A stretch of 64,000 bases of DNA from the NCBI RefSeq assembly GCF_018143015.1, contig NC_054743.1, positions 33,319,934-33,383,933 on the forward strand, given 5' to 3'. A program made the translations under genes and the position numbers. Positions 3,994-43,909 of the stretch are shown piece by piece (positions within the stretch are counted from its first letter, which is position 1; every line of letters begins with the position of its first letter). This DNA is from Lytechinus variegatus. Lineage: Eukaryota; Echinodermata; Echinoidea; Temnopleuroida; Toxopneustidae. The notes under the pieces are model-generated. The model was not told where the DNA came from, did not search any database, and saw nothing but the letters and a program-made list of their open reading frames with translations.

Positions 3994-4609
3994 ATCAGCT
4001 TCAGGATCATTTCGTCCGGTCAAGCAGGGGTGCATTTTCTCTTTCCGACACTTATCCAAGTATGATCACCTTGCAGAGTGCCAATCTATCCACAATGACT
4101 ACTGATTTGGACGCCAGATTTGACTGGTTCATCACAGCCACTTCTACCTCCTGGATCCAGGTTGATATCCTGGACATAAAGTTAGGAATGGGGGCTGTTG
4201 TCTGCATCCACGACCTCATAAGATACTTTGGTGGATGGGTGTGCATGAGGAACTTGGGATCATCTACCACATGGTATTCCTACGATGGCGAGATTTGGTT
4301 GATGTTCCATGTCCGTACACTGTAAAAACTGCGGTGTTAAAACTGACACAAATTGGTGTTAAGAGGACTACACCCTGAGGTGTTAAAATTACACCCTAGA
4401 GATTATACATAACACTAAAAGAGTGTAAATGTAGCAACAAAAGGTGTTGTAGACACCTATAGGTGTAAAACTAACACCACCAATTTCACACCGGTGTAAA
4501 ATAACTGGTGTGGTCCTCTATGTACACCGTTTAACACCACAGTTTTTGCTGTGTAGAGAGGAACAGCCACAGCCTGGCGCTGGCCTGACAGTGAAGCTCA
4601 CTCTCATTG
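3994..4609 (+). pseudogene. orphan CUB-like exon split by a MITE
   Basis: An acceptor (TTGTATCTAG) opens a frame in phase 1, as in the 14 CUB exons downstream, and a donor (ATTG|GTAATA) closes it in phase 1. The translation has CUB-like spacing: GAFSLSDTYPSMITLQS early, a central IHDL where the receptor has VYDHP, and PGAGLTVKLTLIG at the end, matching NGPGFxAEAxxLG. A MITE with its extra TA occupies 238 nt; without it the exon is 378 nt, an exact in-frame match to the commonest receptor CUB exon. With it, the frame meets TAA at once. I see no signal peptide, stalk or partner exon nearby, so it looks like a relic of a lost paralogue or a discarded exon. The conserved domain cysteines are absent. 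Confidence 0.6.
4318..4553. repeat. MITE inserted in CUB-like exon
   Basis: The ends are near-perfect inverted repeats of about 24 bp: CACTGTAAAAACTGCGGTGT on the left and, in reverse complement, CACAGCAAAAACTGTGGTGT on the right. TA is duplicated at 4316-4317 and 4554-4555. The interior is rich in GGTGTNAAA and its inverse. The strong match of the ends and the open host frame on both sides suggest a fairly recent insertion. Confidence 0.8.
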
Positions 4610-6880: not shown

Positions 6881-7042
6881 ATCGTCGTCTTCATCATGTC
6901 AGTGCGTCATTTTACCACTTTTTCTTCTTAGATCTTATTAGCGCCATCTAACGGTTTGCTGCAAATATTAAACGGATTGCAGTTTCCTTATTGAAAAGTG
7001 GGAGTATTTTTAATTTGTGTCAATTCTCAAATGTGTTTTCTG

Positions 7043-7048
7043 TATAAA
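7043..7048 (+). promoter_or_regulatory. possible TATA box of the CUB receptor
   Basis: TATAAA lies 64 nt upstream of the receptor start codon, a spacing that would give a short 5' leader. In an AT-rich genome the motif is common, and a separate non-coding first exon cannot be excluded. Confidence 0.25.
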
Positions 7049-7111
7049 TCATATTTAAATAAATGATCGCACATCCGTCCATATGTTGACCACCATGAAC
7101 AAAGAACCACA

Positions 7112-7178
7112 ATGGGAGACTCAAACCACAATCTTCCTGCTGTAATAATATTTATCTTGGTATCTGGATATTTCACAG
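7112..7178 (+). CDS. CUB receptor exon 1: signal peptide
   Basis: It encodes [20 protein letters not shown] then FT, with a hydrophobic core typical of a secretion signal, and ends CACAG|GTAAGC in phase 1. An upstream ATG at 7094 in another frame stops within 17 codons and may be a small upstream frame. Confidence 0.75.
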
Positions 7179-8155
7179 GTAAGCCTTGTGTTCAATAATA
7201 TTATTTTTATTTGATTTTATTTTCTTCTGCTTGCCTCTCATTCGATAATATTTTTTCCCAAAATATAACAAACATTTATCTAAAAAACTGTATAAATAAA
7301 TATATATATTTATGTATATATATATGTATATATATATATAGATATATGTGTATATATATATCTTTTTAAAAAGCAACATCGCCAATATGGCCATTTATAG
7401 TCCACATTGTCTATACATTTGTAATCTGTTTATCTTTAATATTAAATTGGTAACATACGCACTGCATATTTTCTTATCTCAAAAGACTTGAATTCCTGTG
7501 CTAAAACTCATTACCAGCAACGTTAACCCGATCCCTTCTAGAATCAGCGCGGTCCATGTAGAAAATATATATGGAAACCATAGAATATAGAAGTCAACGG
7601 GTTAAAAATGTATTACATGCCCTTGTCTACATGGTCCTCGAAACAACGACAGAAAAATTAAACAAAAAATTGAATGACATAGTAAATAGGACTCTGAGCC
7701 CGCAATAAAAATGATTCATGTCTGTTTGTCGTATGCAATCTATATGATCATGACAATGTAAATTTGATTGAAGTGCCTGGTCACGTATGATTCAATTCAA
7801 TGTACCTGTATCTGCTGGCGGTTAAAAATTATTAATTTAACGCTAAGACCATCCCATCTGGGGGCGTTTCATCATTATTTTCGTCCGACAAGTTGTCAGA
7901 TCTGACAATTTCCTGGATTCTGATTGGTTGAGAAGCACTGTTACTTTAGTAACTGTCGGATAAAACAGGACTTGTCGGATGAAACGTCTGACAAGTCCTT
8001 TCATGAAACGCTCCCCTGCAAATGACTCAAATGAGTATACATAGCGGAGATTCAAACATTGCTAACAATTTCACCGAAATCCGATCTGGCGATGGAAGGA
8101 TGTAATTAAATTTTCAGATTTAATTTTTTTTTCAAAGGGATAGATATGTACGTAA

Positions 8156-8210
<55 letters not shown>

Positions 8211-11200
8211 AAAATATACAGTGCGTATTTTACCAATTTAATATTAAAGAGAAACAGATTACAAATGTATAGACAATGTGGACGTTACATGGCCATCTGG
8301 GCGATGTTGCTTTTTAAAAAGATATTTACGATATAACCATATATATATATGTGTGTGTGTGTGGGTGTGTGTACATAAACATTGTAGCCAAACCGGCTTT
8401 CTCTCCTTACGAGCTGGTTCGTTTCGGCTGCAATATGTGAAGTCCGTCTATGCACTTCTGACTGTTTGCTCCTTCTCTGTAATTTGGATTATATCTCATG
8501 AATTTCAACATCTCAGTCATTCCGTATCTCCATTATATCTGTCATTCCAGTATATCAGTATCTCCGTAATTTCATTATTTCGGTATCTCAGTAATTTCAG
8601 TACTTTCACTCCTCAATTCCTGTCAGTATTCTCAGTAATCTCACTATTTTCATTATCTCGGTAAATTCGGTATTTTCCCTGTCTTAATAAAGTCAGTATT
8701 CTCAGTCCTCGTCAGTCTTCGAACACTTTCGTATTTCTGTTTTTCCAACTATCCATTCTTGTAGCTCCATACAACGAAATAACAATCAAGCATGAAAGCA
8801 ATATTATTTTATTACTTAAGAAATCATGCTCATTCTGTCGCAACAGGTTCCATTCAAAATTGGACAGAATTTCGTGCAGAAATCTCTAAATGCCAAGCAT
8901 ATTGCCTGGCTCATAATCGAGCATGGAGCCAGATTGTGCTCAACGATTCAGGAGGGAGATTGACATAATCATACACTTGTAAACTCTATGTAGTAAATAC
9001 TGCTTGAATACATTTCAAAGAAAAAAAAACAATCGATTACAAACGATTACTGAATTTCCCTATGCAACTATATACATGGATTAAAAATTGTTCAACACTC
9101 TTCACTTTTACGAAACCATGCTGAACCTTAAACTAACTTTTCAATTCTTTACATGTAGATGCACACCCACCCAATTTTCCACAGGTTTTACTGGATATGT
9201 AATATAAGGGTGGTAAGCTAGGATCTGGATGATCAGGACGGAGTTGTGGTGGCAGTAATGATTCGTTATGGAGATGGGCCGATGGAGATTAAAGAACAAG
9301 TCCACCCCAACAAAAACTTGATTTTAATAAAAAGAGAAAAATTCAACAAGCACAACACTGAAAATTTCATCAAAATCGGATGTAAAATGAGAAAGTTATG
9401 GCATTTTAAAGTTTCGCTTCATTTTACAAAACAGTTATATGCACATCTCGGTCGGTATGCAAATGAGGAACTGATGACATATCACACCCACTATCTTTTT
9501 TGTATTTTATTATATGAAATGTGATTTTTGTTCTCGTCATTGTCATGTGAAATAAAGTTTCATTGCTCCCTGACAACGTGGAATTCCATTATATTAACAT
9601 TTTGTGTTTCAGGCAAGGAGGTCCTAATCGTCAAATTCGTAAAAATTGAAATATTGTATAATTCAAACAAAAAAAACAAAAGAAATAGGGAGTGAGTGAC
9701 ATCGTCGACTCTCTCATTTGGATGTAACTGGCTCGTTCATATGACTATTTTGTTGAAAATAAGTGAAACTTTGAAATGGCATAAGTTTTTTTTACATCCG
9801 ATTTTGATGAAATTTTCGGCATTGTGCTTGGCTGATTTTTCTCTATTGATTCAAATTAACATTTTTCTGAGGTGGACTTGACCTATAATGTTTATCGGTC
9901 ACTATAACTTGACAAAATGGGTTTAATGATTTCGGATGAAATTCTCATTTTGTTATTCATACCAGTGGAATCCGTGTTTGGTCAGACTGAAGTATGTGAT
10001 GACACAATCACCCTGAGTTTGTCGTCACCAAATATGACGGTTACCAATCCCTTTTTCGGCGATCCTTCCTCGACACTCAACTCTCGGGTGAACTGCATTA
10101 CTACTTTCGTTGCCATTCCCGACAGCATGCAGATTGAACTGCGGTTCATTGAGGTCCAGACGACGAGTTACGAAAGAATATCTATCTACGACGATTGGTC
10201 GACGGCTTCTTCAACCTTCCTTATTGCAAATTTTAGAGGGGTCCTTGAAATGTCTCCAGTCGTCACATCTTCCCGTGGAGGATTGATCTTGATCTACAGC
10301 GATTTAAATAATGCTGTAAATGGACCTGGGTACTTAGCCGAAGCTCGAATAATAGGTAGGTACAATTCATTTTTTACATGTAACATAAAGAAAATTATAT
10401 ATTTGGTGACAATCAGTATATATAACAACTGATACACGTTATTCTCCGCTTACATATGCCTTATTTCCACTTTAAAAAAATATAGTTTCTTTCAAAAATT
10501 AATACAACATACTGAAAACCCTTTTTTGCGATTAAAAATTACACCATATTATGACGAGGTATCGAGGTTTAAATTTTTAAAAAATCAATAAAATTCGAAT
10601 CTTATCTGCATATTGATGAGCCGAATATAAAAATACATTAACATGTTTTTGCTTGCAACTTGTGAGTGCTTCAGTAAAATTTGTTCGAATTTCGAATACA
10701 AGTACAATTAAGAAATTGCATGTATTGAGTGGACTTGCAAGAGTAGGAATGAATAATTTCTTAAATGCCAATCCATAGACGGGTAAAACAAATTATGAAA
10801 AAGTTATGTCATCACCTACCCACATTTTTTGTGGTTCAGGACGTCAAGAATATTCAAAAGATGATTTTTTACAGGTAAATACCTATATCATTTCAAAGGG
10901 TATAGGGAAACGGTGCAATAAAATGAGTATAACGCGTTTAAAGTCGCGCGAACCCGTTTTAATCATTCTCATTAAATATATGGAATTTTTATTAATTTTT
11001 TATTGAGATTATTATCTTGAAAGTTAGCATGATAATGTTTTTGTTGTATCATTTTCCCTTTCTATAATACTGGTTGGATTAATGCTCCCATCTTTTTCAA
11101 CTTATTTAATTGTATACATCAAATATAATTATTATGTATATAGTGATTTGCATAGGTATCGGGGTAGCTGCATTGTGTACCACATGGCACTTTGCCATGC

Positions 11201-14200
11201 ACAGTTAAAAGCCATTACATCATTTCTAAAAATAGCTGCACAGGAATGGTGGAAGGTTCTACTTTAAGGTAAGGGAAATTAATTATACATTTACGATCAT
11301 AAATAAAACATAAATAATTATAGACCTTACGTCTACTGAGTTGACAGATGTGCAATATATCCAATAAATAATCCAAAGTAAAAGTCCAATTTGGCTGGCG
11401 AAAAGTAAAAGTTCACAATGATGGCAATGATGAAACCGATGTTGAAGCACGATGAATATCAAGAGTTACTCTAATGAGTTGAAATGTCCGTGAAGGCGAT
11501 GTTCAATTCAATTCAATTTATTAATAATTCATAAAATGCAAAGCAGATATATACAATAAAATGTGTATGGGTATCACTACAAAAGCCTATGGCTTGCTAA
11601 ACAGTGATCCCCTTACATACAAAATATACATCATGACATGGTAAATCAAGAACTTAAAGAACAATCAAATCTACAATAGGTCAATTACAACCAGACTACA
11701 AACAACAGACACACAAAAGAAAACACACACACACATTAAAAAAAATGTTTGTGTAGGTTTTCTAGAATCAATATGCAGATAAAATAATTTTTCTATATTT
11801 AGATTTAATAGCATATTGTGAATGTATATTTTTTATTTCAGATGTAAGAGCATTCCATAACTTATGTTGATGATTAACAGTCAATGGGTTGAAAAGCGTT
11901 CATTAAACAGGTTGATGATCTCGATGAGAACTGAGAATTCCTCTCTCAAAGTAACGGCAAACAGTTCATTGATGGTGTGCAAATAATTCCACAGAAGATG
12001 ATTATTCCAGGTGGAAATAAATTCTGCTCTGACATAAAGTCTCTTAGCTCTGATCTGATGAAGTGATCTGGTATGATATGATGATGATGTCCTTGAAGAA
12101 TCTGCCAGTTTTATATACTAATTACAACAATTCTAGATCCTTCTAGTATTCACTATTCTAGAGGCTTCTGGTATTGTCTTTTAAAACAACGTTCTCCGTC
12201 TTTCTGGAGCATTCTACATTTTTAAAACAATCTTGAATGACCTAAGTGAAATCAACAACAATGTCAATAAAATAGCTAAGCCTATTGTAAACATGGTAAA
12301 GTAATCTGTATTCCGATTTAAAAATATAATTGGCCTTTAAATAGGCAGAGGCCTGCTTAACAAAAGCTTTTACAAATATGTTGTGGAATGTTCTTGATCA
12401 TTCTAAGAAATAGATATCATTAAAGAGAAAATAACGAAATAGATGAATGTAATTGCTTTTACAATTCTTCTTATATGTAACATTATAACTAGAAAGGTAT
12501 AGAAATGACGAGGTTTCAAAGATTTGCAGGCTGTTGCCATGGTAACCAAAAGTAAACAAATGTGCATCGGTTATTTTTGACTTATGATCACGCCTTTTGA
12601 TATCATGTTGTTGTTGATGTTGTTCTTATTGGGGGGGGGGGTATTCAATGGTAACAATTTTCACGCGATCTATAATACATTCCCATTTCGCTTGGTGTCT
12701 TGGCAGAGTACATCAAAGGTTTTGCAAAGACGAAAATCCTTCCAATTCAAGGTCGTTCCAGAGTTAAAATTAAAAATCCGCGTCATTTTCACCAAATGTT
12801 GCACAGTTATAATTTAGAACCGCAATATTCCAAATATGCCTACATTAACGTGGGTTCATGAGCTTGATTTTTTGCTATCGCTCTTTGAAGTTCACCCATT
12901 TGAAAGGTCTCGAGAAATAAAATCAATTTTGCATTTTTAGACACCACGAGATCACCACGTTGAGTCTAAACCGTTTAATTCTCAGTCAAAATCCATCTAC
13001 ATACTTCACAAAATATTTACATTAAAGTTCAGAATTATGTACTTACTATTCTCGTGCTCTTTAAAGAGTTGGAGCACCTTCAATTTAAAAAATAGGGTGT
13101 GAAAGACGACAAAAACATATCTAAAAAAATTAAATTCATATTAAACAAAAGTTATTTTACTGGTACCTTTCTGTTCTGTACTTTTTGTTATATATATATA
13201 TATATATATATATATTAATATATGTCTGTGTGTGTATGTATATACATGTATGTATATATTGCTCTATAACATACATAGCTTACCATGTCAAGCTTCGTAG
13301 ACATCAATTCAGATTCATTTCTTTTAAAGATGTCTATCTAAACTTTGGAGAAATTTACCTGGGTCTTACATAAAAATGCACACAAAGATTTTATTAATTG
13401 AGTCTTTGTCTCACTAAACAGATCTTCCTATGCTCCCTGCATCGCTACCAGGAATTTGTGGCGGCACGATGACTTTGACCGATTCTAGATCTTCCATTAG
13501 CTTCTCTTCTCTTATCTACGACAACGGCGAATCGTCCGCATCATCGTTTGCAGCTGAATGCACCATGCACATTAACAGTCAGTCGGGTCAGGATGTCCAG
13601 GCAGTTCTGGATGATATCCAATTAATCAATGAGTACGTACGAATCTACGACCATCCTTCATCAAGCGATACAGAGTTCTTGGTGACTACCTTATACAGCA
13701 CTGAACAGGCAAGGGCAACTGTGTTTTCATCACAAGGCGGGCTGACCCTTGTGTATTCTGCAAATCAACTAACATCGCATGGTCGAGGGTTCCGGGCTGA
13801 AGTCAGTATCTTGGGTGAGTGCGGGGGCCAGGAAACGATTTTAGAAGAGGGGGTGCTGGTTTGGAAAAAAAAAACATTTGATAAGGGTTTTTGCTATAAA
13901 AAAAGAAAGGTGCTCTTGGTCAAATTTCAACATGGTACACAAAAAAATTTTGGGCAACATACTGTCCACACAACAATGGGTTAAAACTTTATCCAATTCT
14001 GGGTAGTTTTTAAACCAATAACGTGTGCTTTGGGTGAAACTTCACAGTATCGGTTGAAAACTACCCAGAGTTGGATAAATTGTCTAACCATTTGTTGTGT
14101 GGACAGCATGTTGCCCAACATTTTAAGAGTGTAGCATGCCAGCATGATTTCCAGGTGCTATGGCGCATAACATATACGCAGCACCTCCGGAAAATCTTGG

Positions 14201-17200
14201 GGTTGCTTTAGCACCGTACTGCTAGAAGAGGGGTTGTCCCCGGATGGAGATGCTCCACGCTTCCCAGAGCCATGAGTGAGTGAGGGTAGGAACTATGATG
14301 CAATGATTATAGCTTTGCGTTGCAATGACTTCTCTGTATTACTAGTATACATGTAGGGTGAGTAATGGAAATTTCTCAACTTTTTTTCCGTATTGGCATG
14401 TCGTACATGTACTTTCTACTATAAATTAAGGCTCAGGAGAAATGTCGTTGGAAAGTATACATTAGCTTAAGGGCGTAGGCTGGGAATGCACCGGGTGCAC
14501 CCTCCCGCTGAGGCAGAGGAGTTCCGACACTGACAAGCAAAACGAAATTCGCACCCCTTCTTCTGCTTTCAACAGCTGATTTTCCAAACTTTAGTTCCAC
14601 CTCCACAAGATGTGCACCCCATACCACTTAAGTTTCATCTTCCCAGGATGTGCGCCTCCCCATGCTCAAACCAGCTTACTCCCTTGTAGCTCTTACCCAC
14701 CACTTTTATGTCTTAAACTTAAATACTTGTATCATTAAATAGCTTTGCTAAGCAACCCCAGTTTAGCCTTCAGAAAGGGCTACAACATGGATTAGTTCTT
14801 CAAAGTAATCTCTCCTCCAAAACGGTAGAATCAAGCTCAGTGTTTAGGAGACTTGGTTTCTGTTATTTCATGATACAGCCATGGGCGGAAATCCCAGGGG
14901 GGACAGGGGGGTCGTGTCCCCCCTACTCAAAATAGTAGTGGGGGACACAATATCAAATGTCCCCCCTACTATTTTGGGTCTTTGGTGATGCTAAGAAATA
15001 TATCACTGAAAATGGAAATAAAACGTGCGTTTTGGGACGAGATGACCTTTTTTTTTTGCTTGTCAAATATATTTTCGTCGAAATGACCTTAAATTTTAGG
15101 TAATACCTTTCTTTTTTTTTGCTTGTCAAATTTTCCAGACCCTTGACCCCCTACCTTTTGGGAGAGATTTCCTCCCCTGGATACAGCAAAGAAAAGGCAC
15201 CAAATCGGCAAATTATTCTTCTGCATTTTCTAATGTAATAAATCAAATAGACCACACACCAATGGAAATTCGACCTTCAGTGGCACCAACCCTGCTGGAA
15301 AGACCACAGTGTGATCATAGTGTGTTCACATAGTGGACTTTGTGAACATTTTATTCATACTACTCAAATTCAACAGTGTGAAGATATTCTTACACTGTGG
15401 ACACCTCAAAAGTGTGAGAGTGTTCACATTGTCGACTAAATGAAAATGTGATTCGCACTGTTGAAATGCTAAAATTTAACAGTGTGATTGTAATTTCACT
15501 TTGTGTTCCACGCCATGAACACACTGCGGCACACACTGTGAGACCATGTGTTATTTCATCATTCTAATAATTTGCTCTGTCTTAATTGCTCTAAAAAGAT
15601 GGTATTCCATATGAAAGTGATGGACTCTGCGGGGGCGTTATCTCTCTCTCGGATTCTACACCAAACCATACCTTCACCACTCCCCTTTACAACAATCCAT
15701 CAATGGACAACGTTGAAATCGACTTCACTCTCCACATCCTATCCCCCGAAGGAAAGCAGGTGCAACTGATGTTCCTTGATATTTCAACAACCACGAGTGA
15801 GACTATTTCAGTCTATGATTACCCACAATCCTCTTCGCAGCGTTTTACCTATATCTCCGGATCGGTCAATGTCGAGGTGACAGTCTATTCATCCGCTAAT
15901 GGACTGACTGTCATCTATCTGGATAGCTCTTATAAATACAACGGCCGTGGTTTCAAAGCAGTTGCTAGCGTCATTGGCAAGTTTTCTATGTTTTATTCCA
16001 TTAACCTTTAATCTATAGCAATAAACTGGACATGGACGGGCAGGAAGGGGCACTTAATTAAGTCATAAGTGTTTTGAGGAACTTCCAAATGAATTAGTTC
16101 ACACGACTCTGAAGCAAAAGTTACATTGCAAGATTATATGCGGAATATATAGACATCCTTATTCCGATCCCCTCTTTCCCATATACTTTATTTCTTTATC
16201 TATATATTTATATATGTATATGTTGAATGTTTGTTTTTCATAGTCATTTTACTTGCCAAACATAATAAACCTGCCCACGTAACACCTGCAGTTCCAGTAA
16301 ATTTTGTTTTCTTGTTCTCGTCCATTTCCCCTCAGTCTGACTTCTTAATCTTTAAAAAAAATCCAATGTCTGTAACCTGCTTATTCTACCAGCAGATGTG
16401 TCACCATGGACTTTTCCGAGTTTTGCTGGTGGAACTATCGATTTATTTGAATCAAGACCGAATGCGACCTTCTACACTCCTTTCTACTTCCCATCGTCGA
16501 ATAATGACGTGACCCTTGATATTCTATTCCACATCTTGTCTCCGGCGGGTAGCCAAGTCCTACTTTCCTTTATTGATATTGCTACAACCTCGAACGAGAA
16601 GATTTCTGTCTACGACCATCCGTTTTCCATGTCTACAGAGTATAGGGTAGCTCACATCTACGGCCTACTCGACACAGGTGCCGCTTTTTTCTCAACGCAA
16701 GGTGGTTTTACAGTAGTGTACGATGACAGCAGTAGCTCAAGCAATGGTCCAGGATTCCGTGCCGTAGCGAGAATATTAGGTAAGTATAATAGTTTGTAAC
16801 AGAATTCTGCAAACCAAAAAAAATCATTACGACGATATGCGTTGCATTAGTAATCAGCGTTACCGTGGTAGTTACTGTTGGATGGCAAAGTTACCATAAC
16901 ACTTAACTTTTATGCAACGGGGCATTGAGCCTCGTTAAAAACCTGGGGGATTAATGAGCTCTAAAGCGGAATAAGCATGTAACAGTCGTTTGATTGTGAG
17001 TGCACTGCCAAAAATGAGTAATTGCATTTCTTGTGCCACCGGTTACTGAGCACTAGATCTCAACACGGGCAGTCTGTCATTAAATCATCCATGAAGATGG
17101 TGATTTTATTTATTTAATCTAATTGTGTCTTGCAGATATCGTTCCTTCCGGTCAGTCAGCACTTTGTGGTGGAACTGTAGTGCTTGACCAAACAACACCT

Positions 17201-26200: not shown

Positions 26201-29200
26201 AGAGAGAGTTATGCCACCACCTCATTTGCATACCGACCGGGATGTACATATAACTGTTTTGTGAAATTAAACTTAGAAATGCCATAATTTTTTTTTTTAT
26301 TTCACTTCCAATTTTGATGACATTTTCAGCGATATGCTTATTTGATTTTTCTCTACTTGATTGGGTCATATCAACATTTTCGTGGGGTGGACATGACCTT
26401 TAAAGAGATGGAGAATACAAAATTCTTTGTGCGAGGCATTATCTGTAACAATACGAGACACAATAAATTGATAAAATGATTTACATAAAAATTCATTGAT
26501 AATAACCTACCAAGAGGGACAAGGTGTTAGAAACGTTTGGGTTTTTTTTCATGACGTTGCAGATACATCTTCATCTTTTGAACTGGGTTTCTGCGGAGGT
26601 GAAATCGTATTGACAGAATCGATGCCTCGCTTTAATTTTACTACTCCGTTGTACAAGATGTCTTCACTGGCTGAGGTCGATATTAGTTGCGTCCTTTCCA
26701 TTACGAGCGACTCAGGACAACAAGTTCGATTCAGGGTGCATAACTTTGACAGTCCTTTGGGTTCAAATTTTCGTGTGCACGACCATCCTCGATCGTACCA
26801 CAATAACCTGATATCGACACTCTACGGTCCTCTGAATACAAGTGTTGTTTATTTGTCGTCTGAGGGCGGGCTGACTGTGGTTTACTCTGATCTGTCGAAG
26901 TCCAACGCTGAAAGAGGGTTCTTTGGGGAAGCTAGCATTTTAGGTGACTTTTTCTTATTTTCTCTCTATCTTGTACAATTAAGCGGGAAATAATTGTATG
27001 TTAGCAAAGGCGCAGGATTGGCATTGGAACGCTTAACATGGTGTAAGGACACGACATAACCATGCTTACATGAACTTGATAGACATTTCGAGGAAATACC
27101 GGAGAAAAGAAAATTACAATTTACTTTCAGATCCTTTGCTTCATATGTTCTCAATTGAAAAGTCTCACCTCCCTGTTCCTACGTTTCATAAAATCTTCCA
27201 TATACTTTATATGTGGTGCATGGGTACGTTACCATATTTCTCACCTATACCAATTATTATTTCAGGATTGTAAACAAAAGGCAGAAAGTGAAGAATTGCA
27301 CACAAAAAATATAAATAAAAAATAAGGACATAGGATTGCGGGAATAAAAGGGTTTTTTTTTCTTCTTTTCTTACAAATATCTTGCAGATTCATTGCAATC
27401 CAACCAACATGGATTCTGTGGCGGTACGGCTGACCTAACTATGTCGACACCGAAACTTTCACTTTCCTCTCCCCTTTACAACAACCCGTCAACAAAAAGT
27501 CTGCACGTCGATTGTTCATTTCACATCAAAAGTCCAGCTGGGCAAAAAGTCCTTTTGACATTCTTGGATATCGAGACAACGACCGATGAAAGAATATCAG
27601 TATATGATCACCCGACAGCCACTAGTTCCCGTATCGCCTATCTATATGGGACCGTCAGGACGCCAACAGTCCTGTATTCATCGGATGTCGGATTGACAGT
27701 AATCTTGGAAGACCGCAGTGATGCTTACAACGGACCTGGTTATGCAGCTGAGGCTAGTATTCTTGGTAAATAATTCTAAAAATCTCCAATAACACCTATT
27801 CAAGTTATTTTCAGTCGAATGGTCGGAAGCTCACAGTCAGTCGGCAAGCCCTGAAAAAGTAGCTTCTTTTATCCAAGTGATATTCATGACTATAGGGTTT
27901 TTGCATAGTTAATGAGCTTGGTGCGAACCAAAACACGTCTTTTTATTCTGCCATTGCTGCTCTAAATATTAACCAAATTTCATTTTTGGTATCTTTGTAA
28001 AGAAGAAGAATCATTCTTTTAGGTCATGTGTTTGGAATTTTTTTAAAAATGTTGTAATATAGGGAAAACTTTTGATATAAAACATGAAACAAAATGATTT
28101 TTTCATGCAACAAATGTTGTTGTTTTCACACTTGATTTCTGTTTGAGTACAAATGATTTTCAGATCATAATAAAGCTGAAGATCTACGCTTTAATAGGAT
28201 ATATTTTGTATAAGAAGATGTATCTTAGATGGGTCAGCAGCCAGCTTTTCATAGGCCAAGTACATTTAGCAGCTCAAAAACAAGGATACTGCACTCTGAT
28301 TGGTCACAGAGACCACACACCCACGCAAATTCCAATGTTCCCCACACTGGGCCTCTGCAAGGTCACACTCACCATGTGGTAATCTCTTCAAATAACCCGC
28401 GCCTGTTGTTGTGAAAACATTATTCAGCCAATCAGAACTCTGGATTTTATGTTACTCAGAAATTTTAGAAATCTCGTCTTGCATCTTGATGGAAAAAGCT
28501 GGCTGCTGACCCATCTAAAAGATGCCACATATCAAGAGTGACATTGTAAGAAAGTATAGAGTTTGAGCTTTCTGATGATATAAATAATGTTGGTACCTAA
28601 AACACAAAATGTTGCACAATTTGCAAGTGAAAACAGAGGAAGAAATTTCTGTTTGATGCATCTTTTCTGGTAAAAAAATCACTTATTTATCAAAATATTT
28701 TATTCAAAAGAAATAACCAATATGAAAGAGTAACATTTACTCTTCCCAATGGTACAAAAATTATCAATTTTACTCCAACAAAAAGTGGTTAAATTCTTCG
28801 AGAAAGAAAGTCTCACAATTCACGAGATTTTGCAGGGACATGAATTCAGCCACGAGAGGACTTGGATAAATCTAGCCCACTGCTCAAAAAGAGTGTCATT
28901 CACAAACTTAACACATGCTCTTTCTTCTTCTTCTTCTTCTTCTTCCTCTGCTTCTTCATTTCCTTCTTCCTCTTTTTCTTCTTCTGCTTCTCTTTTTTTC
29001 CCCTTCCCGTTACCCCCGGACGTTACCCGTAGCTACAAATTGGTCTACATAAAGAACGATGCTCATATTATGCATAGCACTACACCCCGTTTATCGGCCT
29101 TCTCATCGTTTACGAGCGCACATGATTTGCATAAATGCATAGAATAAACAAGTCTCTGAACGATGCGAAATAAGTAAGCGATTTTAGAATCGACTGTAAT

Positions 29201-32200
29201 TGATGATCAAAAATCTAACGGAAGAGAGACCTATTGGTCATAGCGATTCAGTTCACCTGTCGCCTCCCAGACAGGTGACGAAAAAAAAATAACAAATAAT
29301 AAAAATAGTAATAATAATGATAATAGTAAAAATAATGATATTGATGATAAAAATGATACTAATAACACTCTAAAAACTTTTTTTGTTCTTTTGAGACTTG
29401 CCGGCTTACCAACCTGGCTTCTGCGGCGGTTCGATGGTTCTCAATTTTACCACGCCTCGTGTTGCTTTTTCAACTCCAGTCTACGACAACCCGTTTGTAG
29501 ACAATGTTGTTACACTCTGCAAGATGTACATAAAAGCACCAACCAACTATCAGGTTAAGCTCACTTTAAAAGTCATCGAAACCAGTATGGACAAGCAGAT
29601 TACAGTCTACGATCATCCCTCATCAACTTCATCCAGTTACCAACTGTTTCATTTCTACGGTATCTTGAACGGGAGTGCCATCATCATTTCTACGCGTGGG
29701 GGACTGACGTTGGACATGCAAGACGTGACAAGTCATTACAATGGAAAAGGTTTCAGTGCAGAAGCTCGAATATACGACTTCGGTAATTAAATAGTAATAT
29801 AAAGCAATAAAAGTATATTTTCTATTATCATAATAAAAAATCAGTATAAATTAGATTAGAAAGTAGTAGTAGTAGTAGTAGTAGAAGTAGTAGTAGAATT
29901 AGTGTAGTAATAATAGTAGAAGAAGTAGAGCAGGCTTCGTGATACCTTGGATCTTGTCGAGTAGAACCTTGTGATGACGCTTGGCACCATCATTTCCTAG
30001 ACCCGTTCCTCCTTTTCAGCTAACTAATAATGATAATAACAATAATTATAATAGTAATAAAAACATTGAAAAGAAGATGATAAAATGATAAGAATTAGGA
30101 TAGCAGTAACAAAAGAAATAATAACCGTGAAAAAATAATCTAGTACTAGATCTATTGCTGACCCCTTGTAAAAATACAAATTATGAATTACTGTAAAAGG
30201 ATAACAATAATCTGAAGAAATGAAAGACAATAAATTGCACTTATCAACACTAGCAACTGAGGATTTGAATAAAAACTGCACGTATTAAATGAGGACACAG
30301 AGCGAGTCGAGGACTTCGTATGCTTAAGCCTGCATCCCGAATCACCGTTAAGGGTTCAAAGGATGTTCTCGGATGTAAAGTAGATGTGATCCTCGGTTGA
30401 CCATAGTCCTCAGCTATCGATTATGTAGTAGAATAGTCGTTGATCTCCGTCCGTAAGGTTGTGCGTTTGTGGGTATGTGTGCGTGCATGGGAAGTTGCGC
30501 AGGAGGGTGTGTACGTGAGGGTGGATGGGCGTGTGTACCCGCTTTGGTGTACGGCTCGTTTTGCAAGTAGTCCTGAGCCGCTCGCATTGGCGGCGGAAGC
30601 CAAAAAAATTAGGGGGGGGGTCTACCTGAAATTTTGTGACGGACACATGTAAAAAAATTGACAAGCAAAAAAAAAAAGGTCATCAACCAAAATTTTAGGG
30701 GGGACAATATACATTTTAAGGGGGGTTCACCAGAATTTAGGGGGGACGCAGGAAACAAAATTGGCGAGGAAAAAAAAGAGCTTATCAACTAAAATTTAGG
30801 GGGGCCGTCCCCCCACCTCAAATTTTTTGGGGGATCTGTCCCCCCCCCCCACTTCCGCCGCCTATGGCCGCTCGCAAGTATCCGTGGATTTAATTTGAAA
30901 AAAAATCCGTTTTCCTTTTATATTTACAAGGTTCTACATTGTTATTTTTAATTCAGGTGGGATCTCGTCCACGGAGCTCGGATTCTGTGGAGGTACAATT
31001 GAATTGAGCGATGAACTACGTTTCGTCAACATATCGTCCCCATTCTTCGGGAATCCGCTGACTGCTGCCGATGCATTCATGGAGTGTATAATGCACATAA
31101 AAGCGCCTTCTGAAAAGCAAGTGGCTCTAACTTTCCTAGTCTTTAATACTACTAACAATGAAATGGTTAGGGTGTATGACCATCCTTCATCGGCTTCTTA
31201 CATGGTTGGTAGTTTTCAAGGTGATCTGCAAGATGGAGATGCAGTCATTGTTTCTTCCCGAGAGGGCATCACTATTGTTTATGAAGATGACAGTGCTTCT
31301 CCGAATGGACCAGGATTCCTTGCTCAAGCACAGATTCAAGGTGGGCACGGCTGTTGGTTCTAATATATTTCATCCATGTTTGGCGAGTGCAGCCGTCTGG
31401 CTCCTGCAGGCGCTGCAAATGTACCAGATAAACTTAATTTCGGCTGTAACCTGCCTAAAAAGAACACAGTGTCAATCACAGTGTGATATACTGTATACGC
31501 ATGCTGAGAACAATGTGGTTACAATGTTAGGACTATGTGGATTTATCCCATTTTCACAGTGTATCAACACTGTGAACACAGGGTGACAGTGTATTCTCAT
31601 TGCGTCCACACTGATCACACCATCGGGACTGTGTTTTTTTCTGATAGAATACACCCTCCGTAATAACTATAATTTTCTTCTTATATAATTTATATTTCAG
31701 ATTCTTTCTCGGACACCGTAACTGGTCTGTGTGGGGGTGTCATGGACATCACCGAGTCTTATCCCAGTCTGACGTTCACCACTCCTCTCTACGGCACCTC
31801 TGTCCCTTCTAGCGTGTCTCTTTACTGCAAAATCACTATTACCTGTCCCCCAGAGGAGCATATAGAGCTTACATTGTTCGACGTCGCAGTCAGTGGGCAA
31901 GTCGGCATCTTCGATGTACCACCAACAGGAGCTGGAAGCATTGTGTTCACTTGCACAGGTATCCTCAATGCCTCCACGGTCATCTTTTCGAGACACTCCA
32001 GCCTGCTTATCGACTACAGTGGAACTACTGGTGTGCTTGCAAAGGGTCGCGGATTTACGGCGGAAGCTCGACTAGCAGGTAAAGATAAAAAAAATAGTGA
32101 AATAATATATACAGTATGAGGAGCTTCCATGAGAAAGATCTGGTGAATTGATAACTCTTAGTGATTGTATGATGATAGGAGTCACTGAAGTATTGATTTG

Positions 32201-35200
32201 AAAGATTTATGTTAAATTGTGTAATTTGAATTCAAGTTTGACTGCTATTATACAAAATATTAGGCAAAATGTCGTTATTGTTACATTCTAGAAGAACTAA
32301 ACGAACGTTAGTGTCATCAATGCTCTTGTATTTGTAAGGGTAAGTAGATAATGACATTTTCCTTTAGGAGACTTTTGACATGTTGAACTCGGTCTTATGT
32401 AAATCGGACAATAATTAAAAGATGCAGATGATTTTAACTTTAATTAAAAAGACCTGAATTACGAATCATTGTCCCACTCATAGTCATACCTTTATATTTA
32501 TGGCCAATTCATTGAATTTTCAGGTGGCAATTCATCAAACATCGACGGATTCTGTGGCGGCACGGTCAGCCTGTCTGAATCTCTCCCAAGCGCCACCATC
32601 ACAACTCCTCTTTATGGTCTTACATCACAATTCGGTTTGCACTTAGAGTGTACGATGCATATTACCAGCACCCCGGGAACCCAAGTCCAGTTGACATTCA
32701 TAGACTTTGAGACAACTGCAAGTGAAGGTCTGGCTATATATGATCAACCTTTATCTACCTACAACAAGATTGCTTATTTCTCAGGAAAGCTCGATGTGAG
32801 AACGACAGTTTCGTCTTCCAGAGGAGGTCTGACTTTGACATACCAAGACGACAGTGATTTATATAATGGACAAGGATATCTCTCCGAAGCAAGTCTGTTA
32901 GGTATTGCTAGAAAGTATTTTGTTTGTGACACACTGGCATATATAACCTTATCTACTTTCTTCATCAAACGCGTAATGATTAATTAGTGATAATGGTATA
33001 TCAAGATTTCAGTCAATATTAATGTCAACAAGGTCAATGGCTTTTCAAGTGTACCTTCTGCTTTGGAAATGACAATTGAAAAATCAAGGTGACAAAAGAG
33101 GAAAAAATATACATAATAAATAATGTGCCTTTTAATAGATATGTTCGATCGGTGATAAATGAACACATTATGCGTGATGCAGCTGAAAAGAATCAGATTC
33201 TTTAAAGTGACATGCGCCAAATCTAATATAATGAATATGTTAAAATCAAACATATCACAAGATTAAGAATACACACTTCGGATTTGTTTACAAGAAACAG
33301 AAAACCAAGGTCATCCACCAGTCCCCTTCTCTTTCTCACTCTCTATTTCATCCTTACCTTTCTCCGAACATTCAAACCCGAACCTTTTAAGCATAACTGG
33401 ACGCCACTTTGGTCGAATTAGGCGTTTAAGACGTGCAATGTATATGCTGTAGAGGTATGTTAAAGAATGTAATAGTTCAAGGAAGAACGGCAATTCAATA
33501 ATTTTCTATTGGTATGAGAGCACAAATGAAATGTCGATATCAATCATCCATGGTTTTTACATCTTCACTCACAGATATTCAGCCGATCTCTCTGGAGCGC
33601 GCATGTGGAGGATATGTCGCCTTGAACAAGAACGTTCTCCCAAGAATGACGATAACATCCCCTCTGTATGGCACGTCTTCACCATCAAACGTAACTATCA
33701 GTTGCTGGTGGTTCTTCTCAAACATTTTACGTGACCGGCAAATTGAGGTGGTTCTGAAAAACGTGGGCATTTCTGGAGATGAACGAATCAACGTATACGA
33801 CCACCCCTCTACTCAATCGTATCTAATTGCTTCGCTGTCTGGTCCGTCCGCGGATTCCATATTCACATCGACAAGGTACGGATTGTCGATATATCTAGAA
33901 GACATCTCACCAGGCGCCAATGGAGGTGGATTCATTATTGACGCACGACTCCAAGGTACGTGTATGTGTGTAATGGTGTGGTGATGGCGTTGGTGTTTGT
34001 GGTGATGATGGGGATTATGTTGATGATGATGATTAAGATGATGGCGGCGATAATGCTGATTATGGTGACGGGGATAATGAATGAGATGGTGGTGACGATG
34101 ATGCTGATGATGATAATGGCGATGGTGATGTTTTCATCGTAATGATAGCTGTTATGATTGTGACGATGATGATGATGATTACGGTGTTGATATAACTTAA
34201 ATTTAGAACATTATTAAGAGGTGATGAACGAATCCCCCCCCCCTTGGATAGACCAATGATCGATAGCTTTTTACAAGTACGATTGAGCAGTAATCCAGCA
34301 TAGTTAATTCTATTTCCTCACATTTCCTTCAGGAACAGAAACAACGATGTCACCAACATCATCAAGCAACATGTTACCCACGGCAACAACAGGTGTGCTT
34401 AAAAATAAATTAAACATATTCAAATGTTAATAGAATAGTAGGGGCTCAGTTAAAATCAGCTTAATGACTGTAAAGATGCAGTAAATCTAGAAATAGCTTG
34501 GAATTCCAATGAATATCCCCATCTCATGGCAGAAGCAAAGGAAATTTGAAGCAAATTCTGTAGCGAGATTTTATTAATTGAATTATTTTGACATCATAGA
34601 AATGCATGTACACGATTTCTGTCAGACACTCAAGAACATTGGAAGAAAATCATGAAGGTAAAACAATAATTGAACCAAAATACAATTTCATATCCGTGAA
34701 AATGTTAAGGGGTCTGCACCGCCACCGCTCCCCTACCCACTCAAAAAGAAAAAAAATTACCAGTCCACTAGTAGAGATTAATGACCGATATTGCCTTTCT
34801 GATGTTGCGTTTCGTACTAAATTGTACGACAATGTTACTTTTTTAATATTTCCTTTTCTCCCTTCGTTAGCAGACGTCTTGTCGACAAAGGGAGCCGGTG
34901 AAATGACACAGTCGAACCCGGACACATCGATCACCTTGACAACATCGACATCCGTGTCCAGTTCAACCACCCATGCACTGGAGGAAAACGGTATGTTTAA
35001 TCCATCTAGTAAAAACAAGTCACGGACGAGTGGGTTCTTTCCGATAGAAAATCAGATCAATTTATCAATTTCAAAGCTTAAATTTCTGGAAAACAGAAAG
35101 TCGGGATTAAAATCTGTTAGGCAAGTCGATCAGCGAAACATTATTATAACCATGCTCCAAATTCTTGCTCTGTATATTACACTTCATAATTAACAATTAC

Positions 35201-35973
35201 CGGGCAACTAATTGATATAAATTTTGGCTGTTTCTCGTATCTCTAGTTTACAGTATTAAAATGCTCTGTTAAGGTGATTGATGATATCTATATTACTTTG
35301 ATCTTCCACCCCACCTCGTGTGGCGTGTCTCAACAAATTGGCTTAATCAGCACAGAAACGTTTTTTAATTCATTTAACACAAGCTGTAAAATGTACCTTG
35401 CCAATGCCTAAACGTCTGTAGATATACTGATACGCTAAATGCAGTGTGTATTTATGATGTGACCATTATTATTGTATTACCCGCATTATTTTGACAAATC
35501 ATGTAGGTACTACACCTGTAGATAACCTCATTGGTATCGCAGCTGGTGTGGCGTCATCTGTAGCAGTGGTCATACTCGCCATTGCCATCATCACCCTAAT
35601 CGCCATACGATCACGTAGAAAACGTCACGAAAACGGTGCCTCGGCGGCGTCCGGTTCCAGTGTTAAACCACCGAGCCCGCCCCCGCGTGGCGATGGATCT
35701 CGATCACATGAAACAACCTTCACTTATGGAAAGGACGATGGCAGCCTGGTTGACGATGTCGGTGACGATCACCACTATTCGCGGGCGGTGTATTCTGCTA
35801 TCGACAATAAACCCGGTGATGAAGAGGAGGATCATTACTACATGATTCCTCAGAGTTGTGAGGAGAGTGACGTCATAACAGAAGGCCCGACTTACATCAA
35901 TGATCATGTGACTAAACCTAGAAGATACTTGGGCCAACATGTTACTCACGGTAATGATACAGAACTTGTATGA
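7112..35973 (+). CDS. 14x CUB-like type I receptor with ITAM-like tail (whole gene, 18 exons)
   Basis: The predicted protein has 2026 residues: signal peptide (1-22), fourteen CUB-like domains of 126-132 residues (23-1812), a Thr/Ser/Pro-rich stalk (1813-1877), a transmembrane helix (about 1879-1905), an RSRRKR stop-transfer and a 120-residue tail. Each domain is one exon with both introns in phase 1, and the exon lengths sum to one open frame. The domain signature is [FL]CGG at the start, a second Cys about 45 residues on, then VYDHP, SSxGGLT and NGPGFxAEA at the end. CUB domains bind protein or sugar ligands outside cells; here only the first of the usual two disulphides is kept. The tail holds seven tyrosines, including an ITAM-like pair. 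Exons were assembled by eye from splice consensus. I know no named orthologue; a scavenger- or pathogen-recognition role is inference. Confidence 0.85.
7853..8022. repeat. palindromic MITE, GCGTTTCATCA type
   Basis: The arm GGGGGCGTTTCATCA with TTTTCGTCCGACAAGT opposes ACTTGTCGGATGAAACG and CATGAAACGCTCCCC. There is no coding capacity. Confidence 0.55.
8156..8210. repeat. (CA)n(TA)n microsatellite
   Basis: About eight CA units run straight into about eighteen TA units. It is likely to vary in length between individuals. Confidence 0.85.
8490..8715. repeat. degenerate short-period repeat (TCTCAGTAATTTC-like)
   Basis: Units such as ATCTCAGTAATTTCAGTA and variants recur with a period of about 8-16 bp. 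The open frame reported across it is low in complexity and shows no protein signature. Confidence 0.5.
9296..9888. repeat. foldback MITE, GTCCACC family, copy 2
   Basis: The left edge AAGTCCACCCCAAC and right edge GAGGTGGACTTGACC enclose arms with ATCAAAATCGGATGTAAAA and its inverse. It ends 77 bp before CUB exon 2. Confidence 0.8.
9966..10355 (+). CDS. CUB receptor exon 2: domain 1
   Basis: The acceptor is ATACCAG and the donor ATAG|GTAGGT; length 390 nt. It is divergent: it has VCDD in place of CGG, and IYDDW in place of VYDHP. The end [13 protein letters not shown] and both cysteines are kept. It is the membrane-distal domain. Confidence 0.85.
10440..11500. other. intron 2, left part: no feature seen
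   Basis: AT-rich intron sequence with chance frames only. No exon with domain-like content or clear repeat was found. Confidence 0.4.
11505..11890 (-). mobile_element. LINE 3' end, minus strand
   Basis: On the - strand a frame near 11880-11790 reads [20 protein letters not shown] and on to a stop, the LINE C-terminal pattern LWNxLP..IK. A tail follows with AAGCCATAGGCTTTTGTAG and ends in AATTGAATTGAA repeats at 11505, typical of a LINE 3' terminus. It is 5'-truncated. Confidence 0.7.
13190..13260. repeat. (TA)n microsatellite
   Basis: TA repeats followed by TG/TA mixed repeats, 160 bp before CUB exon 3. Confidence 0.8.
13422..13814 (+). CDS. CUB receptor exon 3: domain 2
   Basis: 393 nt, phase 1 at both ends (AAACAG acceptor, TTGG|GTGAGT donor). 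It has [20 protein letters not shown] and [11 protein letters not shown], and ends [11 protein letters not shown]. The cysteine pair is intact. Confidence 0.88.
13938..14131. repeat. foldback MITE with TA duplication
   Basis: Arms containing TTGGGCAACATACTGTCCAC and the inverse GTGGACAGCATGTTGCCCAA, plus ACTACCCAGAGTTGGATAAA against its inverse, form a hairpin of about 194 bp with TA at 13936-13937 and 14132-14133. The outer ends (CACACAAAA and TTTTAAGAGTG) resemble the CACTGT-type MITEs. Confidence 0.75.
14880..15185. repeat. G/C-run repeat, GGGGGGAC family
   Basis: Starts GGGCGGAAATCCCAGGGGGG and holds runs of G and C around CCCCCCTACTATTTTGGG, then two TTTTTTTTGCTTGTCAAAT units. Related stretches lie at 30582-30872, 52125-52370 and 55436-55700. 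It is non-coding. Confidence 0.5.
15301..15547. repeat. MITE rich in CACAGTGTGA
   Basis: The outer parts AGACCACAGTGTGATCATAG and CACACACTGTGAGACCATGT are inverse to each other, and CACAGTGT or ACACTGTG recurs at least eight times inside. It sits just before CUB exon 4. Confidence 0.55.
15599..15976 (+). CDS. CUB receptor exon 4: domain 3, one Cys lost
   Basis: 378 nt. The first Cys (LCGG) is present but its partner position reads IDFTLHI, so the domain has a single unpaired cysteine. VYDYP replaces VYDHP. The donor reads ATTG|GCAAGT, a GC-AG intron rather than GT-AG. Confidence 0.85.
16396..16779 (+). CDS. CUB receptor exon 5: domain 4, no Cys
   Basis: 384 nt, phase 1 at both ends. The start reads FAGG instead of FCGG and the second position LDILFHI, so the domain contains no cysteine at all, while VYDHP and [13 protein letters not shown] are kept. 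The acceptor has tandem CAGCAG, which could add or drop one residue. Confidence 0.87.
16845..16930. repeat. partial foldback MITE, second copy of the 359-498 family
   Basis: TGGATGGCAAAGTTACCATAA followed by AACTTTTATGCAACGGGGC is the inverse of the left arm at 359-410. Only one arm is clear. Confidence 0.5.
17136..17513 (+). CDS. CUB receptor exon 6: domain 5
   Basis: 378 nt (TCTTGCAG acceptor, CTAG|GTATTT donor). Consensus domain with [36 protein letters not shown] and [13 protein letters not shown]. Confidence 0.9.
17735..21710. mobile_element. DNA transposon with about 750-bp inverted repeats
   Basis: The ends GTCCAGTCAAT and their inverse are flanked by TA. The arms (about 17735-18480 and 20930-21710) are long inverted copies; each arm is itself two tandem units of about 310 bp. 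Every unit carries the palindrome ATTTGCATATTATGCAAAT or a near match twice, eight in all. The interior holds decayed coding on the - strand (an acidic [20 protein letters not shown] stretch near 18860, and [15 protein letters not shown] near 19300) that I could not place in a transposase family. Stops are frequent, so it is inactive. It lies in the intron between CUB exons 6 and 7. Confidence 0.75.
20278..20840. repeat. foldback made of GAAAGACC/GGTCTTTC units
   Basis: The ends CCACAGAGGGGAGACCTTTG and, in reverse complement, CCACAGAGACCAAGACCTCT form an inverted repeat, and the interior is packed with variants of CTTTCAATGATCTTTC and its inverse every 20-40 bp. It is nested inside the 4 kb transposon. 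Confidence 0.6.
21844..22227 (+). CDS. CUB receptor exon 7: domain 6
   Basis: 384 nt (TTTTCAAAG acceptor, TTAG|GTAGTG donor). [18 protein letters not shown] and [13 protein letters not shown] are present. It follows the long intron that holds the 4 kb transposon. Confidence 0.9.
22575..22970 (+). CDS. CUB receptor exon 8: domain 7
   Basis: 396 nt, the longest of the set (ATGTAAG acceptor, CTGG|GTATGT donor). FCGG and SKCEIHI keep the cysteine pair; HFYDNP replaces VYDHP; the end is [13 protein letters not shown]. Confidence 0.88.
22990..23790. other. intron 8, left part: no feature seen
   Basis: No exon-like frame, RNA gene or clear repeat in this part of the intron. Confidence 0.4.
23797..24035. 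repeat. direct repeat of about 60 bp, two copies
   Basis: GTTTGAGTGATGAAGGGTTAA with CTGACGAGTATCTTGAAGAA at 23797-23850 recurs, slightly changed, at 23975-24030. Function unknown. Confidence 0.6.
24360..25620. repeat. AGGTCA-rich repeat
   Basis: AGGTCA or GGGTCA and the inverses (TGACCT, TTTGACC) occur many times, with two blocks reading CACGTGATCAAGGTCA-like near 24380 and 24535 and inverse forms near 25265-25330. This looks like an old dispersed repeat that contains nuclear-receptor half-site sequence. Confidence 0.5.
25855..26405. repeat. foldback MITE, GTCCACC family, copy 3
   Basis: CATAAAAATCAGATGTAAAA on the left and the GTGGGGTGGACATGACCTTTAA edge on the right identify it. The left terminus is eroded. 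A 15-18 bp poly-C run at 26187 lies inside it. Confidence 0.65.
26563..26943 (+). CDS. CUB receptor exon 9: domain 8
   Basis: 381 nt (GACGTTGCAG acceptor, TTAG|GTGACT donor). FCGG and ISCVLSI keep the cysteine pair; VHDHP replaces [17 protein letters not shown] follows; the end [12 protein letters not shown] departs from NGPGF. Confidence 0.87.
27388..27765 (+). CDS. CUB receptor exon 10: domain 9
   Basis: 378 nt (TATCTTGCAG acceptor, CTTG|GTAAAT donor). [26 protein letters not shown] and [13 protein letters not shown]: a consensus member. Confidence 0.9.
28090..28715. repeat. foldback element in intron 10
   Basis: TTAGATGGGTCAGCAGCCAG at 28226 is matched in inverse by CTGGCTGCTGACCCATCTAA at 28499. 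Outer parts (TGATTTTTT.., TTTTCACACTTG) pair more loosely. No coding capacity was seen. Confidence 0.6.
28921..28998. repeat. (TTC)n-rich polypyrimidine tract
   Basis: TTC and CTT repeats run for about 78 bp; the serine-rich open frame over them is a by-product of the microsatellite. Confidence 0.85.
29225..29300 (+). repeat. SINE 3' tail fragment
   Basis: GAGAGACC..GGTCATAGCGATTCAGTT, CGCCTCCCAGACAGGTGACG and an A-rich end repeat the tail of the fuller SINE at 52750-53130. The tRNA-like head is absent. It ends 95 bp before CUB exon 11. Confidence 0.6.
29396..29782 (+). CDS. CUB receptor exon 11: domain 10
   Basis: 387 nt (TTCTTTTGAG acceptor, TTCG|GTAATT donor). [21 protein letters not shown] and [15 protein letters not shown]. 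The end carries two extra residues before the splice. Confidence 0.88.
29858..29925. repeat. (AGT)n microsatellite
   Basis: AGT repeated about ten times with AGA and ATA variants, followed by TAATAA-type repeats near 30025-30060. Confidence 0.8.
30582..30872. repeat. G/C-run repeat with GGCGGCGGAAG ends
   Basis: ATTGGCGGCGGAAGC at the left is matched in inverse by ACTTCCGCCGCCTATGG at the right; the interior has several AATTTTAGGGGGG-like units and AAAAAAAAAGGTCATCAACC units. It lies 85 bp before CUB exon 12. Confidence 0.6.
30957..31340 (+). CDS. CUB receptor exon 12: domain 11
   Basis: 384 nt (TTTAATTCAG acceptor, CAAG|GTGGGC donor). [34 protein letters not shown] and [13 protein letters not shown]. 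Confidence 0.88.
31460..31640. repeat. MITE rich in CACAGTGT
   Basis: AACACAGTGTCAATCACAGT on the left opposes GATCACACCATCGGGACTGT on the right, with several ACAGTGT and ACACTGT units between. It is related to 15301-15547 and sits between CUB exons 12 and 13. Confidence 0.55.
31701..32078 (+). CDS. CUB receptor exon 13: domain 12, four Cys
   Basis: 378 nt (TATATTTCAG acceptor, GCAG|GTAAAG donor). Besides LCGG and LYCKI it has cysteines in ITCPPE and VFTCTG, so this domain may carry a second disulphide. IFDVP replaces VYDHP and the GGLT block is lost. Confidence 0.85.
32524..32901 (+). CDS. CUB receptor exon 14: domain 13
   Basis: 378 nt (GAATTTTCAG acceptor, TTAG|GTATTG donor). [37 protein letters not shown] and [13 protein letters not shown]. 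Confidence 0.88.
33575..33955 (+). CDS. CUB receptor exon 15: domain 14
   Basis: 381 nt (TCACTCACAG acceptor, CAAG|GTACGT donor). This membrane-proximal domain starts ACGGY, keeps [10 protein letters not shown], and ends [13 protein letters not shown]. It is more divergent than the middle domains. Confidence 0.86.
33990..34185. repeat. (GAT)n-rich minisatellite
   Basis: GATGATGATG units with GGTGATG variants cover about 190 bp; the Met-rich open frame here is an artefact of it. Confidence 0.8.
34333..34392 (+). CDS. CUB receptor exon 16: stalk
   Basis: A 60-nt exon (TTCCTTCAG acceptor, ACAG|GTGTGC donor) encodes 20 residues, mostly Thr, Ser and Pro. It looks like a mucin-type O-glycosylated stalk and, being 60 nt in symmetric phase 1, could be skipped without a frameshift. 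Confidence 0.7.
34874..34990 (+). CDS. CUB receptor exon 17: stalk
   Basis: 117 nt (GTTAGCAG acceptor, AACG|GTATGT donor) encode 39 residues rich in Thr and Ser, including [13 protein letters not shown]. It extends the stalk between domain 14 and the membrane and is also symmetric in phase 1. Confidence 0.75.
35507..35973 (+). CDS. CUB receptor exon 18: transmembrane helix and signalling tail
   Basis: The exon encodes a hydrophobic helix with a small-residue start ([20 protein letters not shown]), basic RSRRKR, a proline stretch ([10 protein letters not shown]) and a tyrosine-rich tail. [19 protein letters not shown] (protein residues about 1967-1985) is YxxI-x11-YxxI, an ITAM-like pair with the wide spacing known from Fc-gamma-RIIA. 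PTYINDH fits a Grb2-type YxN site and RRYLGQ a STAT3-type YxxQ. Function of each site is inference from motif rules. The stop is TGA. Confidence 0.88.
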
Positions 35974-43905: not shown

Positions 43906-43909
43906 TTGA

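Follow-up and report, generated by a model that had tools for sequence, protein, structure and literature searches.

A Lytechinus variegatus locus predicted to encode a modular transmembrane protein with 14 CUB domains

The locus and its gene model

The DNA analysed here (the window) is a stretch of 64,000 nucleotides of the sea urchin Lytechinus variegatus, spanning positions 33,319,934–33,383,933 of contig C4, and the genome against which it was searched comprises 869.6 Mb in 33 contigs. The gene model places 18 exons on the + strand between window positions 7112 and 35973; spliced together, they give 6081 nt of open frame, which encodes 2026 residues and a stop. A signal exon is followed by 14 CUB exons, two stalk exons and a single exon for the transmembrane segment and tail. 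The CUB exons, 378–396 nt long and each divisible by three, are all flanked by phase 1 introns; the stalk exons, of 60 and 117 nt and rich in Ser and Thr, share the symmetric 1-1 phase. The introns are of the GT-AG type in 16 of 17 cases, with one GC-AG intron after domain 3. Exon placement and protein length agree with the original prediction. The model likewise bears out its outline of single-exon, phase 1-1 domains followed by a stalk and a transmembrane/signalling exon, and the tail encoded there carries tyrosine motifs. All exons listed below derive from the gene model, and the 14 domain exons were also recovered by the leave-one-out profiles described in the next section.

7112–7178, + strand: first exon, signal peptide with the ATG, ending in phase 1; in a quiet block between the two copies of the locus
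9966–10355, + strand: CUB domain 1 exon, 390 nt; translation from another possible start, the ATG at 9917, would run into it
13422–13814, + strand: CUB domain 2 exon, 393 nt
15599–15976, + strand: CUB domain 3 exon, 378 nt; GC donor, one Cys
16396–16779, + strand: CUB domain 4 exon, 384 nt; no Cys
17136–17513, + strand: CUB domain 5 exon, 378 nt
21844–22227, + strand: CUB domain 6 exon, 384 nt
22575–22970, + strand: CUB domain 7 exon, 396 nt
26563–26943, + strand: CUB domain 8 exon, 381 nt
27388–27765, + strand: CUB domain 9 exon, 378 nt; also a PDB match
29396–29782, + strand: CUB domain 10 exon, 387 nt
30957–31340, + strand: CUB domain 11 exon, 384 nt
31701–32078, + strand: CUB domain 12 exon, 378 nt; four Cys
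32524–32901, + strand: CUB domain 13 exon, 378 nt
33575–33955, + strand: CUB domain 14 exon, 381 nt
34333–34392, + strand: stalk exon 1, 60 nt, Thr/Ser-rich; present in the second copy
34874–34990, + strand: stalk exon 2, 117 nt, Thr/Ser-rich; present in the second copy
35507–35973, + strand: last exon, with the transmembrane segment, a basic stretch, a 121-residue tail and the stop codon

CUB identity of the domains

The domains had been described as CUB-like, and profile searches now bear this out. Against Pfam CUB (PF00431, cut-off 21.4 bits), the signal exon joined to domains 1–7 scored E 4e-28 (98.4 bits), and domains 8–14 joined scored E 1.3e-33 (116.1 bits). Searched singly, nine of the 14 domains reach E 0.01 and five miss it, domain 1 among them. 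Each domain was scored against a profile built from the remaining 13; E-values ranged from 6.5e-49 to 2.6e-26, whereas the best shuffled domain sequence (20 shuffles per domain, search size set to 1000) reached E 1.2. The 14-domain profile found 14 distinct matches at E 0.01 among the sequences of solved structures, including cubilin (3kq4, the best, E 4e-17), the enteropeptidase heavy chain (E 1.4e-8), PCPE-1 (E 5e-5) and MASP and C1r chains, all of them CUB-domain proteins. Domain 9 on its own matched procollagen C-endopeptidase enhancer 1 in the PDB (E 7e-4). Because of these Pfam and solved-structure matches, the sequence profiles give no placement of the domains outside the CUB fold, an outcome that the original prediction had named as counting against it.

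The domains are nevertheless CUBs of a weak, derived subtype, because five of 14 miss Pfam singly and a whole-genome Pfam search that scored 150 CUB matches, out of 613 candidates, has none of the 14 among those scored. The usual, though not universal, state of a CUB domain is four cysteines in two disulfides, whereas 11 of 14 domains here have exactly two, close to positions 11 and 43. Of the other three, domain 3 has one Cys, domain 4 has none and domain 12 has four; a Pfam match does not need the four cysteines. On the cubilin alignment, one of the three acidic positions that mark a calcium-binding CUB appears, by eye, to be Thr; we claim no such signature.

A second copy on the same contig

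The same contig carries a near copy of the gene in reverse orientation, 4.4 Mb away. It retains 18 of 18 exons and the same 14 domains in unchanged order, has no indel in 6081 coding nt and keeps the donors and acceptors of all 17 introns. The two coding sequences differ at 97 nucleotides (21, 19 and 57 by codon position) and 44 amino acids, with dN 0.0101, dS 0.0355 and a dN/dS of 0.286. Window bases that face a gap number 169 of 16,014 aligned in introns and 0 of 6,014 in exons. Substitutions per aligned base are alike in exons (1.6%) and introns (1.5%), and therefore dS (3.6%) exceeds intron divergence (1.5%), an excess for which simple constraint does not account. The similarity continues, with gaps, through the 3' part of the window at 93–98%, and at 96–97% over 59,000–63,900. 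A repeat of ~600 bp at 61186–61791 is 83–86% identical to at least 38 other places in the genome (40 candidates scored).

The second copy is most likely the other haplotype. Whether haplotype or duplication, it tests the gene model separately, and the model passed. Five near-identical pairs within C4:31.3–39.8 Mb mirror each other around an axis at 35.551–35.569 Mb, with separations of 2.2–8.5 Mb, and mirrored pairs also occur on C8 (n = 2, axis 11.87), C15 (n = 2, 21.77) and C16 (n = 3, 27.81); this mirror analysis rests on 12 hand-picked match pairs. The probable cause is a heterozygous animal whose two haplotypes were left uncollapsed and assembled head to head. We prefer this reading to the alternative, a genuine giant inverted duplication.

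Divergence between the copies is very patchy over 9925–36500, in introns and exons alike, being ~6% at 22.4–22.9 kb and ~0.15% at 22.9–26.9 kb, a pattern compatible with haplotype recombination or gene conversion. A 4-kb insert (17733–21712) in the intron between domains 5 and 6 has no counterpart in the second copy. Among 34 scored of 991 candidates, 20 are further full-length copies of its inner 3.3 kb at 91–97% identity, and we read the insert as a polymorphic, transposon-like insertion.

Among the domains, dS is very uneven, at 0 in domains 5, 8 and 13 and 0.09–0.11 in domains 3, 7, 10 and 14; 11 of 100,000 random spreads matched this unevenness. Domain 9 has nine differences in 378 nt, compared with 1/300 and 2/300 in its flanks, and domain 10 has 16 in 387, compared with 5/300 and 2/300. 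Domain 9 is also the only domain in which dN exceeds dS (8 vs 1 changes). We have mostly set aside the idea of hypervariable domains because the patchiness extends to introns and the overall dN/dS is 0.29. A local cause may lie behind the divergence of domains 9 and 10.

The 5' end and the probable unity of the gene

The signal exon falls within 7045–7245, a block of 201 nt with one mismatch and no gap between the copies and the longest quiet block of 6900–9054. Because the exon sits in this block, 7112 is kept as the likely start of the gene, which is plausible and not proven. The signal exon is less certain because domain 1 has its own in-frame ATG at 9917 with a hydrophobic leader, which offers an alternative start. 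The second copy does not have this ATG, and the in-frame ATG found there matches window position 9926.

A profile search of the window (stop-to-stop frames of at least 40 codons, both strands, E < 0.1) returned the 14 known domains and one further frame at 3954–4322, which belongs to the following feature.

3994–4609, + strand: upstream CUB-like exon, interrupted by a repeat with a stop; found by the profile search and uninterrupted in the second copy

We read this frame as a broken CUB-like exon whose membership of the gene is uncertain. The interruption is a 239-bp repeat at ~4318–4556 that introduces the stop; the genome holds 1,274 first-look candidates for this repeat and at least 39 other copies at 93–94% identity (40 scored). 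The uninterrupted version in the second copy is ~80% identical. A further weak CUB-like exon (E 0.13) stands ~3 kb before it in that copy, and a match to this exon was not found in the window or in the preceding 10 kb. Both upstream exons precede the signal exon, from which they lie ~27 kb away in the second copy. Divergent CUB-like exons also stand ahead of the main array at related loci on C1, C2 and C15. The upstream exons may be remnants of a longer ancestor or part of another transcript, and because such remains stand there, the 5' end is less certain than earlier stated.

These features bear on whether the exons might be split over two or more neighbouring genes, or whether the 5' part might be a decayed gene fragment. 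Large introns, the broken or missing state of the upstream CUB-like exons in the window copy and the possible own start at domain 1 would all suit such a split. However, phases and frames are consistent all along the gene and are preserved in the second copy. Further, four hydrophobic + strand frames of at least 60 codons occur across domains 1–14, and none of these looks transmembrane-like by eye, as they are low-complexity or overlap a domain exon in another frame. We regard a split as the least probable of the readings considered. The exons likely belong to one gene, because they form a single frame and all 18 are kept together in the second copy. The locus is a real gene, and looks like an intact one for a large modular cell-surface protein.

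Domain duplication and related arrays

Pairwise identity among the 14 domains is 23–52%, with a median of 34%. The proposal that the array was built by exact exon duplication therefore stands for the exon boundaries and not for the sequences. Because identity is so low, the duplications are old, and the array would have arisen by old duplication of intron-bounded exons. Recent exon duplication was ruled out, the top pairwise identity being 52%.

A genome search with domains 5–6 as query gave 65 matches at E up to 10, 52 of them below 1e-5. The two copies of the locus account for 28 (14 each), and the others fall at C1:78.54–78.55 Mb (12), at C2:79.38–79.40 (7), on C15 (8, in two mirrored loci), on C8 (8) and elsewhere (2). 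At least four other contigs (C1, C2, C15 and C8) carry related CUB arrays, and the domain profile counts 13 domains on C1, nine on C2, seven at one C15 locus and three at one C8 locus. The related arrays consist largely of phase 1-1 single exons; 34 of 47 domains were scored as such by a naive pick of the best splice site, a rule that undercounts because four of the window's own 14 domains fail it.

Candidate transmembrane exons with phase 1 acceptors lie 3.7 kb (C1) and 7.4 kb (C2) past the last domain, and their tails contain the motifs NPNYTEL and YHLV. The C15 and C8 loci have no convincing transmembrane exon in the parts examined. The last exon of the gene has one strong match in the genome, the second copy (99%); two other matches have E 0.18 and 0.45.

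A domain tree of 37 rows was built from the 14 window domains, 22 paralogue domains (E < 1e-6, > 100 residues) and an outgroup. It is mostly unresolved, with two of 34 inner branches starred and 22 open, and the window domains are intermixed with those of C1 and form no single clade. The outgroup, a CUB-like consensus written by hand, carries no conclusion. The mixing with C1 domains is a weak hint that the array is perhaps partly older than the split of the gene family.

Symmetric exons and splice variants

The original prediction further saw in the locus a design for producing many ectodomain variants, through skipping or duplication of symmetric exons. Omission of any of the 16 internal exons would indeed keep the frame, and an excerpt of PMC8001218 describes class 1-1 modules as suited to exon skipping. 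However, the same excerpt, which does not name CUB, presents class 1-1 symmetry as a general mark of exon-shuffled extracellular modules (PMC8001218), and a property so general carries no specific message about splicing. The 14 exons are identical in order and number in both copies. Among frames of 40 codons or more, searched by profile on both strands of the window, no further domain exon turned up in the introns, and the profile showed none between the 14 of the second copy either. Diversity of the Dscam kind draws on arrays of alternative or mutually exclusive exons, whereas here each domain position has a single exon and no alternative-exon arrays were found. The claim of many variants is unsupported, and we consider a diversity generator very unlikely.

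The tail and its possible function

The 121-residue tail contains YSAI-x11-YYMI, one YxN site (YIND) and a PxxP motif. The ITAM pattern is YxxL/I-x6-12-YxxL/I. YSAI-x11-YYMI fits it, although the second YxxI is a YYMI and the spacer, at 11, is a long one, and 143 of 20,000 shuffled tails also match. The pair is found in neither candidate paralogue tail (C1, C2). Because we looked for the motif with the tail already in view, it carries modest weight.

On balance, we lean towards a single-pass type I receptor with 14 CUB domains, a stalk and a possible SH2-docking tail, its gene structure read from the sequence and its ligand, cell type and signalling inferred. One gene would produce a surface receptor whose CUB array stands on a short Ser/Thr-rich stalk and most likely binds protein or carbohydrate ligands. 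Clustering of the receptor would lead to phosphorylation of the tail by a Src-type kinase, and the phosphorylated YxxI pair and YxN site could then dock SH2-domain proteins. The closest model of action is CDCP1 (Trask), which resembles the present protein by description in its CUB-type ectodomain, single transmembrane segment and tail. CDCP1 has three CUB-like domains, as against the array of 14 here. Excerpts of PMC3534080 describe it as a CUB-type membrane protein with a tail, itself short, that is phosphorylated by Src kinases.

The comparison with cubilin suggests a different reading, in which an endocytic or scavenger receptor binds many soluble ligands through its array and uses the YxxI motifs as uptake sorting signals. 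Cubilin is the top solved-structure match and shares a long CUB run. Yxx-hydrophobic is a sorting-signal pattern, which YSAI and YYMI fit too, and the paralogue tails have motifs of their own (NPNYTEL, YHLV). Cubilin has an EGF stretch, whereas no EGF family appears in the Pfam results for the protein here. According to excerpts of the sources, cubilin has 27 CUB domains (PMC6283879), compared with 14 here, and has no transmembrane segment and acts through amnionless (PMC5799345), whereas the present protein is anchored by its own transmembrane exon. In addition, the tail seems long for pure sorting and carries the YxN and PxxP motifs besides. An endocytic role is possible but unlikely.

Sea urchins also offer a precedent for adhesion. 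The egg bindin receptor EBR1, which functions in sperm-egg binding, is described in an excerpt of PMC9265791 as having repeated CUB domains and thrombospondin repeats. The present protein might similarly be a structural or developmental adhesion protein, for example of an epithelial surface or the egg coat, that recognises no foreign ligand, and the overall purifying selection between the copies is consistent with this. However, EBR1 belongs to the ADAMTS family, and the Pfam results for the whole model (E up to 10, with HMMER filters dropping most matches above 0.1) contain no thrombospondin, ADAMTS, sushi or EGF family. The transmembrane tail with its tyrosine motifs also argues against adhesion, which we judge improbable. 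The same absence of sushi separates the protein from CSMD1–3, which pair CUB with sushi domains. The likeness to these proteins lies in CUB repeats with a single transmembrane segment, as an excerpt of PMC6506821 describes for CSMD2.

Among the matches listed, no CUB-only transmembrane family with an activating-type tail was recognised in the open-access literature. ITAM receptors include FcR gamma and CD3. The YxxI-x11-YxxI of the tail resembles theirs, whereas their ectodomains are Ig-type and unrelated to the CUB ectodomain here. At 41926–43920 on the − strand, the window has an open frame, contained in one exon, for a protein with an Ig domain (652 aa counted from the first Met, Pfam Ig_3 E 1e-9) and an ITAM-type YEYL-x8-YSLL in its tail, a pattern matched by 321 of 20,000 shuffled tails. 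It is doubtful, though conceivable, that the locus represents an animal ITAM-receptor family that recognises ligands through a single-disulfide CUB array instead of Ig domains and stands near an Ig-type ITAM-like gene.

Significance

The protein is probably an ordinary kind of modular animal receptor, most plausibly of the recognition type. With a silent tail, it would be another large surface protein of modular build. A signalling tail would bring a further receptor class into the question of how ligands are sensed in animals that lack antibodies, and the neighbouring Ig receptor would then mark the region as worth exploring.
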